Below, piece after piece: positions 50,014 through 54,528 of a stretch of DNA of 64,000 nt. A program made the position numbers and the translations under genes. The DNA is from Bradymonas sediminis (GTDB lineage Bacteria > Myxococcota_A > Bradymonadia > Bradymonadales > Bradymonadaceae): the NCBI RefSeq assembly GCF_003258315.1, contig NZ_CP030032.1, forward strand, positions 4,032,501 through 4,096,500. The letters are read 5' to 3'. Position 1 is the first letter of the stretch. Every line of letters starts with the position of its first letter. Below the pieces are notes generated by a model. That model did not search any database and was not told the origin of the DNA. It was given only the letters and a program-made list of their open reading frames with translations.

Positions 50014-51114
50014 TTGAATACGACCACTTTTCTAAAACGTCATCTTGATGCCTCGGACGAGGAGATACTTCGACTCATCGAGATGGCCACCAACGCGCTC
50101 GTTGAAAGCACCGATTACCCGGCTGGCGGAAATCCCGAGGAGCGCGTCTGGCGCTACCTGCAATACCCGTATTATCTGGGACTCTTCGCGCGACGCGTCG
50201 TCGCGGCAGAGGGCATTTCCAACCACGTCAAAGAAAAACTGTGCCACGCCTGCCTTCAGGTCAATTTGCACCTGGAAGAAGGCCAAGAGCCCGGCCCCGG
50301 CCTCTTTATGTTGACGGCCTGGCTGGGGACTCACTCCCTGCTGACCCGCCGCGACTACCTCGGATTGCGCCGCGGCATCATCTGGCTGCCGCGGCTGACC
50401 TCGAATTACGAGGAGCATGAGGAATACCTCATCCCGGCCTGCCGCGGCATCTTCACCAACTTCAAGATCAGCCGCGAGGAGTCCATCGAGATTATCTTGA
50501 TGGTCCTCACCGCCAAAGAAGCCATCGGCGCGCGCGGCCGCCCGATCTTCGACTTCCTGATGAGCCTGGACGCGCTCAATAAGACGCTCAAGCGCGAGGT
50601 CTGCAATATCGTGGTCGAGAACGCGATTCCGTTCCCGCGCGGCGAATACGAGCACCCGCTCGAGTGCAACTCCCAGGAGCAAGACCGCCTGAGCATCCGC
50701 TTCTTGCCCGGCAGCGTGCGCCGCCGGGCCGTGGTGTGGCTGGCCCGATTGGGCGGCGACCCGATGGACCTGCTCAAAAAGTTGCTCAAGCCGGGGACGG
50801 TGCGCGGCTACGGCGGCGACCATGTCGCCAGCGGCGCCCTGGACCTGCTCGACGAGCAATGGGAAAATATCGAAGAGCAAACGCGCCTGGCCCTGCTCGC
50901 CAAAGCCGCCGACCTGCCCGACACCTCGGTCCGGAAGCGCGCTTATATCCTCGGCGAGAAATATATGGGCATGGAATTCCTCGAGCAGTCGCTTGATGAC
51001 AAGGCCAAGAGCCTGCGTGAATGGGCGCGCGAGCGCCTGGAGCGACGCGAGGTGGAAGGTCCGCCCTCCATCGAGCAATTGCAGGCGGAGCTCGAAGAAG
51101 AGATCGAAGAATAA
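50014..51114 (+). CDS. HEAT-like repeat protein of unknown function
   Basis: A 366-residue soluble, mostly helical protein. The TTG at 50014 is chosen because a perfect GGAGGT lies 5 bases upstream; the open frame reaching back to 49891 has no such site and adds a low-complexity leader. Helical pairs recur ('RRRAVVWLARLGGDPMDLLK', 'SGALDLLDEQWENIEEQTRL', 'KAKSLREWARERLERREVEG'), suggesting alpha-solenoid (HEAT/ARM-like) packing in the C-terminal half. There are no catalytic motifs, signal peptide or membrane helix. It opens a tight plus-strand cassette: the next start is 29 bp after its stop. I do not recognise the family. Confidence 0.72.
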   Translation: MNTTTFLKRHLDASDEEILRLIEMATNALVESTDYPAGGNPEERVWRYLQYPYYLGLFARRVVAAEGISNHVKEKLCHACLQVNLHLEEGQEPGPGLFMLTAWLGTHSLLTRRDYLGLRRGIIWLPRLTSNYEEHEEYLIPACRGIFTNFKISREESIEIILMVLTAKEAIGARGRPIFDFLMSLDALNKTLKREVCNIVVENAIPFPRGEYEHPLECNSQEQDRLSIRFLPGSVRRRAVVWLARLGGDPMDLLKKLLKPGTVRGYGGDHVASGALDLLDEQWENIEEQTRLALLAKAADLPDTSVRKRAYILGEKYMGMEFLEQSLDDKAKSLREWARERLERREVEGPPSIEQLQAELEEEIEE

Positions 51115-51143: not shown

Positions 51144-51425
51144 GTGGTCACCTGGACCCTATCGGTGGACCGGCGCAAAGCCCAACGCGCCGCCATCATC
51201 GCCGAATTGGACGCCCTCGCCGAGGGCGTCCAAGACCTCACGATCGAGGTCTTCGCCGAAGACCATTATTGGAACGCCGCCGACCACGGGGCGTTCCGCG
51301 ATTTTGTGCCTTTCGCCACCCTGAGCCACCCCCACGCGGAAGGCCTCGAATACGTCGCCGAAGCGCTCCTTGAGAGCTTCGGTTGGCTGGTCGACTTCCG
51401 CCCCCCCGAAGTCACCGAGGACTAA
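51144..51425 (+). CDS. small hypothetical protein (93 aa)
   Basis: A 93-residue acidic protein starting with GTG 51144 after a clear GAGGAG site (5-base spacing). The longer open frame from 51021 overlaps the upstream gene in another frame and is not needed. Sequence features: 'SVDRRKAQRAAIIAELDALA', 'LTIEVFAEDHYWNAADHGAF' and a C-terminal amphipathic helix ('YVAEALLESFGWLVDFRPPE'), suggesting a small alpha/beta fold. It sits 29 bp after the HEAT-like gene and 3 bp before the F1-beta-like gene. Function unknown; position suggests it binds one of those products. Confidence 0.68.
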   Translation: MVTWTLSVDRRKAQRAAIIAELDALAEGVQDLTIEVFAEDHYWNAADHGAFRDFVPFATLSHPHAEGLEYVAEALLESFGWLVDFRPPEVTED

Positions 51426-51428
51426 TCC

Positions 51429-52547
51429 GTGGAATTCGAGAATTACGAACAACGCCCCAGCGCGATCATTCGCTGCGAGGGCGATTCGCTTCGCGCCTTC
51501 GTCGGTGACACCCTGCCGGGCATCGGCGAATCCCTGGAGATCCGCTCCGAAGCGGGCGACTCGGTCTTCGCCGTGGTGCGCCGCCACGTCGGCGGGCGCG
51601 AGGTCGACGCGCTGCTGCTCGACCCGCCCGCCTGGGTCCAACCCGGGTGCGCGGTTCACGCCACCGGCAAAGACGCGCATATGCCGTTGCCCAGCGCAGG
51701 CGTCACGCAATTAAAAGACCTGGCGTTCTCGGCCGGCGCCGAAGATGCCACCGACACCTTCGCCTTCCGCGCGCGCGAGTTGGCCTTCGCCGAATTAAAC
51801 GGCGCACGCCCCGCCCTCTCCACCGGCTTTGGCCCGGTCGACACCCTCGCCCCGGTCGCCGCCGCCGGCGTCAACCTGGTGCTCGACGCATCGCCCAACG
51901 CCGACGCGTTCAACACCCTCTGCGCCCGCATCGCCGCCGCCGGCGACTTCGACGCGAAGCTGCGCCTGAGCAATGATGGCAGCCCGGCCGACTGGGTCAC
52001 CCACCAATTGGAGCTTGAGCCGAACCCCGCGCGCCAACTGACCGGCGTGCGCGTCCTCACCAACTGGGCCGCCCGCCTGCGCGACCAGGGCCAGAACCTG
52101 CTGGTCTGCGCCGAGCTTCCGCCGCTGTCGACGCCCGGGTTCACCAGCCCCGAGGACGCCGCCCAGGGCACTTCCATCGGCGAGGTCATCGACCTGCTGG
52201 GCACCGCCCTGAGCTCGACCCACACCGCCACGGTCACCACCCTGCTGCGCCTGCCGCTGTTCGACAGCGCCGCCGGCATCGACGCCATCATCGAGACGAT
52301 GTCGCTGGGCGACGTCGACGCCCAGATATTTGTCGACGCCGACACCCGCTTCGTCCCCACCCGCTCAACCTCGCGCGCCCAGCTCGACGCCGACGCCCAG
52401 AGCCAGCAACAACAGCTGCTCTCGCTGCTCAACCGCGCCGCCAACGCCCGCGACAAAGCCGCCCTCCTGGGCGAATTCGGCGTCACCGACGCCGAGCTGC
52501 AGGCCATCGCCGACGCCGATCAATTAAACGTCTCGCTGCTCGACTAA
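51429..52547 (+). CDS. degenerate F1-ATPase beta-subunit-like protein lacking the P-loop
   Basis: A 372-residue protein from GTG 51429. Residues ~20-95 follow the N-terminal beta-barrel of rotary ATPase catalytic subunits ('FVGDTLPGIGESLEIRSEAG', 'HVGGREVDALLLDP', 'VQPGCAVHATGKDAHMPLPS'). Residues 131-165 follow the nucleotide-domain entry ('STGFGPVDTLAPVAAAGVNL' against the F1 pattern E-T-G-I-K-V-x-D-L-L-A-P), but the Walker A that should come next is replaced by 'VLDASPNADAF'. The Walker B region reads 'LLVCAELPPLS', and 'FVPTRSTSR' corresponds to the S-R segment before the C-domain. The C-terminal helical domain is very short. ATP hydrolysis is not expected; a scaffold or regulatory role is inferred. 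It ends a three-gene cassette. Confidence 0.75.
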   Translation: MEFENYEQRPSAIIRCEGDSLRAFVGDTLPGIGESLEIRSEAGDSVFAVVRRHVGGREVDALLLDPPAWVQPGCAVHATGKDAHMPLPSAGVTQLKDLAFSAGAEDATDTFAFRARELAFAELNGARPALSTGFGPVDTLAPVAAAGVNLVLDASPNADAFNTLCARIAAAGDFDAKLRLSNDGSPADWVTHQLELEPNPARQLTGVRVLTNWAARLRDQGQNLLVCAELPPLSTPGFTSPEDAAQGTSIGEVIDLLGTALSSTHTATVTTLLRLPLFDSAAGIDAIIETMSLGDVDAQIFVDADTRFVPTRSTSRAQLDADAQSQQQQLLSLLNRAANARDKAALLGEFGVTDAELQAIADADQLNVSLLD

Positions 52548-52649: not shown

Positions 52650-52690
52650 CGCGCACCTGCAAAACGCCCGACAAAAAACAACCCACAAAA

Positions 52691-52726
52691 AAACACCCCC
52701 GATGGAATCTCCATCGGGGGTGTTTT
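52691..52726 (-). terminator. bidirectional rho-independent terminator
   Basis: A perfect 15-bp stem (AAACACCCCCGATGG / CCATCGGGGGTGTTT) with a 5-base loop. T-runs exist in both directions, so it can end the acyl-CoA synthetase transcript and, from the other side, the three-gene cassette. Confidence 0.93.
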
Positions 52727-52761
52727 CTCAGGCTAAAAGCCCATGCCTCACGGCATCAACC

Positions 52762-54528
<1,767 letters not shown>

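Follow-up and report, generated by a model that had tools for sequence, protein, structure and literature searches.

The 64,000-nucleotide stretch of the Bradymonas sediminis genome analyzed here (contig NZ_CP030032.1, positions 4,032,501–4,096,500, forward strand; hereafter the window) contains a gene, designated C, whose product we call pseudo-beta. An earlier note on this DNA had described the protein as a P-loop-less homolog of the catalytic subunit of rotary ATPases, and profile searches, a predicted structure, and conservation across the bacterial family all agree with that description. The gene and its domains are located in the window as follows.

51429..52547, + strand: pseudo-beta gene (C), 372 amino acids, GTG start, stop codon included
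51456..51686, + strand: N-terminal beta-barrel, residues 10–86 (predicted strands 12–86; alignment to F1 beta from profile position 14)
51804..51893, + strand: entry to the RecA-like domain, residues 126–155, TG-x3-D-x-LAP-x3-GG-x-NLII-D, the best conserved segment
51867..51908, + strand: segment GVNLVLDASPNADA, residues 147–160, replacing GGAGVGKT; no GK[ST] in 20 members
52173..52388, + strand: C-terminal half of the RecA-like domain, residues 249–320, with equivalents of the ITSTKxGSIT and DPxxSTSR motifs of F1 beta
52389..52544, + strand: shortened C-terminal domain, residues 321–372, two helices, DELSEED-equivalent turn retained, terminal bundle gone

The four strings quoted in the earlier note, DTLPGIGESLEI (residues 27–38), HVGGREVDALLLDP (residues 53–66), STGFGPVDTLAPVAAAGVNL (residues 131–150), and DASPNADA (residues 153–160), are all present in this 372-amino-acid open reading frame (ORF).

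Pseudo-Beta Is a Paralog of the F1-ATPase Beta Subunit

Pfam and NCBIfam scans with the single pseudo-beta sequence gave sub-threshold matches only; the match to TIGR01039 (E-value 0.002, 17 bits) did not reach the curated cut-off of 462.85. A single-sequence search of the PDB detected the F1 beta subunit of 5fl7 (E-value 0.0046) over residues 24–147, a match which ends at the point where the P-loop ought to start. Much stronger matches were obtained with A2, an alignment of 18 relatives built with homologs collected in 17 other genomes within the same GTDB family. The A2 profile matched solved F1 beta chains with E-values of 1.8e-20 to 1e-19 (6q45_D, 1.8e-20), and the Escherichia coli beta subunit (5t4o) was matched at 1.5e-19 in a single alignment of profile positions 14–372 to residues 16–412. 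F1 alpha matched the same profile at only about 3e-5, and neither type III ATPase nor V/A-type chains were found among the best 60 PDB profile matches. Pseudo-beta is thus specifically F1-beta-like. Profile–profile comparison using hhalign also placed it closer to beta (1.2e-18) than to alpha (2.8e-8). An origin from alpha, SctN/FliI, Rho, or V/A-type subunits was ruled out by these scores.

The AlphaFold2 model of pseudo-beta is confident (predicted local distance difference test score 87, predicted template modeling score 0.86) and contains both the beta-barrel and the RecA-like fold of F1 beta. In a Foldseek search of the PDB with this model, F1 beta chains ranked at the top over the whole length (1.3e-20, template modeling score 0.73). 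The earlier note had regarded the C-terminal domain as nearly absent; the terminal bundle is indeed missing, but the DELSEED helix-turn-helix is retained, and its IxGxDELxxEE turn corresponds to DELSEED of F1 beta. Considering the agreement of profile, structure, and conservation across the family, chance resemblance was ruled out, and pseudo-beta is securely identified as a paralog of F1-ATPase beta turned pseudoenzyme.

In a phylogenetic tree, pseudo-beta branches off the stem between the alpha and beta clades, on very long branches for which long-branch attraction is possible. Its exact parent may therefore have been either a canonical or an N-type beta subunit.

Loss of the Nucleotide-Binding Site

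True beta subunits have the pattern TG-x3-D-x-LAP-x3-GGK-[IV]-GLFGGAGVGKT. In all 20 members of the pseudo-beta family, this is changed to TG-x3-D-x-LAP-x3-GG-x-NLIIDxS or a variant of it, after which the sequences diverge; the entry segment stops where F1 beta carries the P-loop, and the family motif GGxNLIIDxS takes the place of GGAGVGKT. Walker A (GGxGxGKT) is absent from every member (0/20), and both Lys155 and Thr156 are gone. The replacement of the G-x4-G-K-T loop first noticed in the window protein, in which DASPNADA occupies residues 153–160, thus holds for all 20 members examined. The positions of Arg246 and Tyr331 (beta numbering) are deleted in 20/20 members. The catalytic Glu181 is not conserved among members, although the alignment is uncertain at that place. 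At the position of the Walker B Asp242, nine members have E, five have D, and six have other residues, and the adjoining NIxR is deleted. Because these catalytic-site residues are lost, the sequences indicate that pseudo-beta cannot bind or hydrolyze ATP in the manner of F1 beta.

The STxxxxIT motif and the DPxxSTSR loop are retained. Mean pairwise identity is highest in the RecA entry (0.46) and the C-terminal half of the RecA-like domain (0.43), and the nucleotide-binding half of RecA (0.24) is among the least conserved parts. The conserved structural motifs, together with weak conservation at the nucleotide site, suggest that what maintains the fold is its packing and its contacts with partners.

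Distribution and Selection

Pseudo-beta is present in 20 of the 21 genomes of its GTDB family. Clear orthologs scored at least 300 bits in 18 of them, compared with at most 42 bits for true betas elsewhere, and two divergent orthologs (L068 and L069) were recovered in a genus that had seemed to lack the gene. The sole family genome in which it was not found (G015) is an incomplete assembly. Outside the family, single-sequence searches of 38 genomes from other families gave no ortholog, and neither did a profile search of a 112-genome phylum sample once its family members were set aside. One scan of named GTDB contigs revealed a single relative, in the Lujinxingiaceae metagenome-assembled genome contig JACCWM010000195, and another such scan revealed none. 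By this relative the family belongs close to Bradymonas and Lujinxingia, bacteria for which a predatory life and type III genes have been reported (PMC7460792).

Within one genus, the ratio of nonsynonymous to synonymous substitution rates (dN/dS) of pseudo-beta is 0.22–0.28, which indicates purifying selection. Pseudo-beta is thus fixed in a single bacterial family, where purifying selection acts on it, and it shows the hallmarks of a pseudoenzyme: the catalytic fold is present, the catalytic residues are lost, and the sequence is selectively maintained.

Genomic Context

Two genes precede pseudo-beta on the same strand, and a convergent gene follows it.

50014..51114, + strand: gene A, about 366 amino acids, TTG start, all-helical repeat (HEAT/ARM-like) prediction
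51147..51425, + strand: gene B, 92 amino acids, ends 3 nucleotides upstream of pseudo-beta
52686..52730, no strand assigned: terminator-like 20-bp stem between pseudo-beta and the convergent gene
52762-54528, - strand: AMP-binding synthetase-like gene, convergent to pseudo-beta

Gene A occurs in all 21 family genomes with 64–85% identity, and its conservation is extreme (dN/dS 0.02 between two congeners; a comparison with L056 was set aside because its coordinates were wrong); a structure search returned weak generic HEAT/ARM matches only and no known family. Homologs of gene B were found in 18 of the 21 genomes, and the protein has no Pfam, NCBIfam, or PDB match. Apart from one weak match for A, neither gene was found elsewhere in the phylum sample. 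Genes A, B, and C are all restricted to the same family, and C lies downstream of A in 13 genomes representing eight genera, with B between them in 12.

Elsewhere in the genome we identified a canonical F1 alpha/beta pair, an N-type pair, an SctN-type ATPase, Rho, and a short Rho-like protein, none of which is near pseudo-beta. The two F-type alpha/beta pairs are more than 1 Mb away, in accordance with the earlier statement that the gene stands outside any atp operon. No V/A-type A or B subunit was present among the PF00006 loci of the genome, which are of the F, export, and Rho types.

Comparison with Known Systems

Few known enzymes are as conserved as F1 beta (AtpD, TIGR01039). Pseudo-beta shares with it full-length homology, the barrel, the RecA-like domain, the TG-x3-D-x-LAP entry, the STxxxxIT and DPxxSTSR motifs, and the DELSEED-type turn, but lacks the P-loop, the equivalents of E181, R246, and Y331, and the terminal bundle of the C-terminal domain, and is not placed with atpA/atpG. 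The B subunits of V/A-type ATPases are noncatalytic, with a degenerate P-loop and no working Walker A. In this respect they resemble pseudo-beta as ring-subunit homologs of rotary ATPases; however, pseudo-beta is derived from F1 beta, and its genome encodes neither subunit A nor subunit B of the V/A type. SctN and FliI belong to the same superfamily, and an SctN-type gene is present in the genome, whereas pseudo-beta has lost the P-loop, is unlinked to the export locus, and lacks the T3SS_ATPase_C domain, which was detected in a control protein (L001). A parallel in recruitment is provided by the F1-like ATPases of Mycoplasma (the X0 type linked to MIB-MIP and the gliding type of M. mobile), in which paralogs of F1 alpha/beta serve outside ATP synthesis. 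Walker A is retained in their beta-like subunits (PMC12994834, PMC8406192), whereas pseudo-beta has lost it and has no adjoining gene for an alpha-like partner.

To our knowledge, where close homologs of F1 beta have roles other than ATP synthesis, they have either kept nucleotide binding or remained part of an alpha/beta-type ring. A family of P-loop-less stand-alone beta subunits appears to be undescribed so far: our search, largely of open-access literature, found none.

Possible Roles of Pseudo-Beta

From the observations above we infer a molecular role for pseudo-beta. The earlier note had listed as candidates a scaffold, an inhibitor of a rotary or secretion ATPase, and a structural component of a ring. 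We propose that it is a noncatalytic, protein-binding subunit, an adaptor or scaffold, that works with the co-inherited A and B, and we give this a probability of about 0.45. Pseudo-beta would pair with A as a helical-repeat scaffold and with B as a small protein, and the inter-subunit surfaces inherited from the beta subunit would serve assembly rather than catalysis. Several observations weigh against this proposal. Gene B is missing from G003; the three genes are scattered in at least three genomes (G004, G005, and G012), and A-B is separated from C in three others (G007, G009, and G019). Genes for the AMP-binding synthetase and a lysyl-tRNA synthetase (LysRS)-like protein also stay near A-B-C in several genomes, and therefore the adjacency of A, B, and C may reflect inherited gene order. 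Moreover, members are only 26–52% identical to the window protein, and such fast evolution ill suits a part buried in a slow-evolving complex.

The main rival, which we consider unlikely but worth weighing, is that pseudo-beta is an inhibitory, assembly, or dormancy factor of the host ATP synthase. It would take a beta-like place beside alpha, or bind gamma through its DELSEED turn, so that F1 is blocked or held. Its ancestry from F1 beta rather than from alpha or export ATPases, the retained barrel and DELSEED helix-turn, and the fact that almost every one of these genomes also encodes intact F1 alpha and beta are consistent with such a role. However, pseudo-beta is never found in an atp operon, the terminal bundle of its C-terminal domain is gone, and in the tree it evolves fast relative to F1 alpha and beta. 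An extra domain of the host true beta is found class-wide and is not co-restricted with pseudo-beta. This domain is an insertion of about 50 amino acids in the linker between the barrel and RecA-like domains of the canonical F1 beta of the family (G000:C1:2968475-2968663 in L005; L081–L086). It has no Pfam match above cut-off. The betas of two sister families (f2 and f4) have it too, but it is missing from the E. coli beta and from most others seen. A tie between pseudo-beta and this insertion was dropped as evidence, because the insertion occurs in other families of the class.

Somewhat less probable again is that the remodeled pocket (GGxNLIIDxS, with N149 and D153) binds another small ligand and that pseudo-beta acts as a sensor. 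N149 and D153 stand in the place of the P-loop and show almost no variation, and degenerate F1-beta domains are also fused to extracytoplasmic function (ECF) sigma factors, a regulatory setting. On the other hand, the half-domain that would form the pocket is otherwise the weakly conserved one (0.24), and both residues are lost in the divergent L068 and L069.

A role as part or regulator of an SctN-like type III export ATPase complex is improbable. An SctN-type ATPase is present in 19 of the 21 family genomes, and the type III genes of B. sediminis were reported to be up-regulated in predation (PMC7460792). Nevertheless, SctN-type ATPases are also common across sister families and elsewhere in the class where pseudo-beta is absent, and because they are so much more widespread, a link by co-restriction was rejected; in addition, there is no linkage to an sct locus, and the profile favors F1 beta. 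Finally, although catalytic residues are lost and the sequence is divergent, pseudo-beta is not a decaying, functionless copy of a beta gene, because it is under purifying selection (dN/dS 0.22–0.28); the open ORF, its conservation in 20/21 genomes, and the identical losses in all members likewise refute this explanation.

A family-wide stand-alone beta subunit with no nucleotide site provides a natural test of how the fold is used without ATP, and predatory-type bacteria may have in pseudo-beta a new regulator of their energy metabolism.

Degenerate Beta Domains Fused to ECF Sigma Factors

A search of the sister family for degenerate betas led to proteins of other Myxococcota that join an ECF sigma-70 factor to a degenerate F1-beta domain with an altered P-loop.

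L112:3217-4866 (G023): ECF-beta fusion
L115 (G098), L121 (G211), and L122 (G158): ECF-beta fusions
L116 (G271): partial ECF-beta fusion

All of these fusions except L112 have ankyrin repeats between the sigma factor and the beta domain. Their beta domains match true beta at 2.6e-44 (hhalign), much better than pseudo-beta does, and because of this far closer match they probably represent a recruitment independent of pseudo-beta. No description of ECF sigma–F1-beta fusions was found in a search largely of open-access literature. We tentatively suggest, with rather more doubt than confidence, that degenerate F1-beta is a recurrent, undescribed noncatalytic module in Myxococcota, occurring both as stand-alone pseudo-beta with A and B in a nucleotide-independent complex and in the ECF fusions, where the fold would be used for assembly or sensing and not for catalysis.

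Other ATPase Genes of the Family

The second F-type cluster of the genome (G000:C1:2087000-2095000; L003, L004, and L030) begins with beta and epsilon-like genes and ends with alpha and gamma-like genes. It was assigned to the N-type by this gene order, and G010 and G003 have alpha/beta pairs that fall in the same clade. The short Rho-like protein (L007, G000:C1:4364568-4365182), which the genome encodes in addition to Rho, has 335 amino acids and lacks the N-terminal and RNA-binding domains of Rho, and a similar short match recurs in most family genomes.
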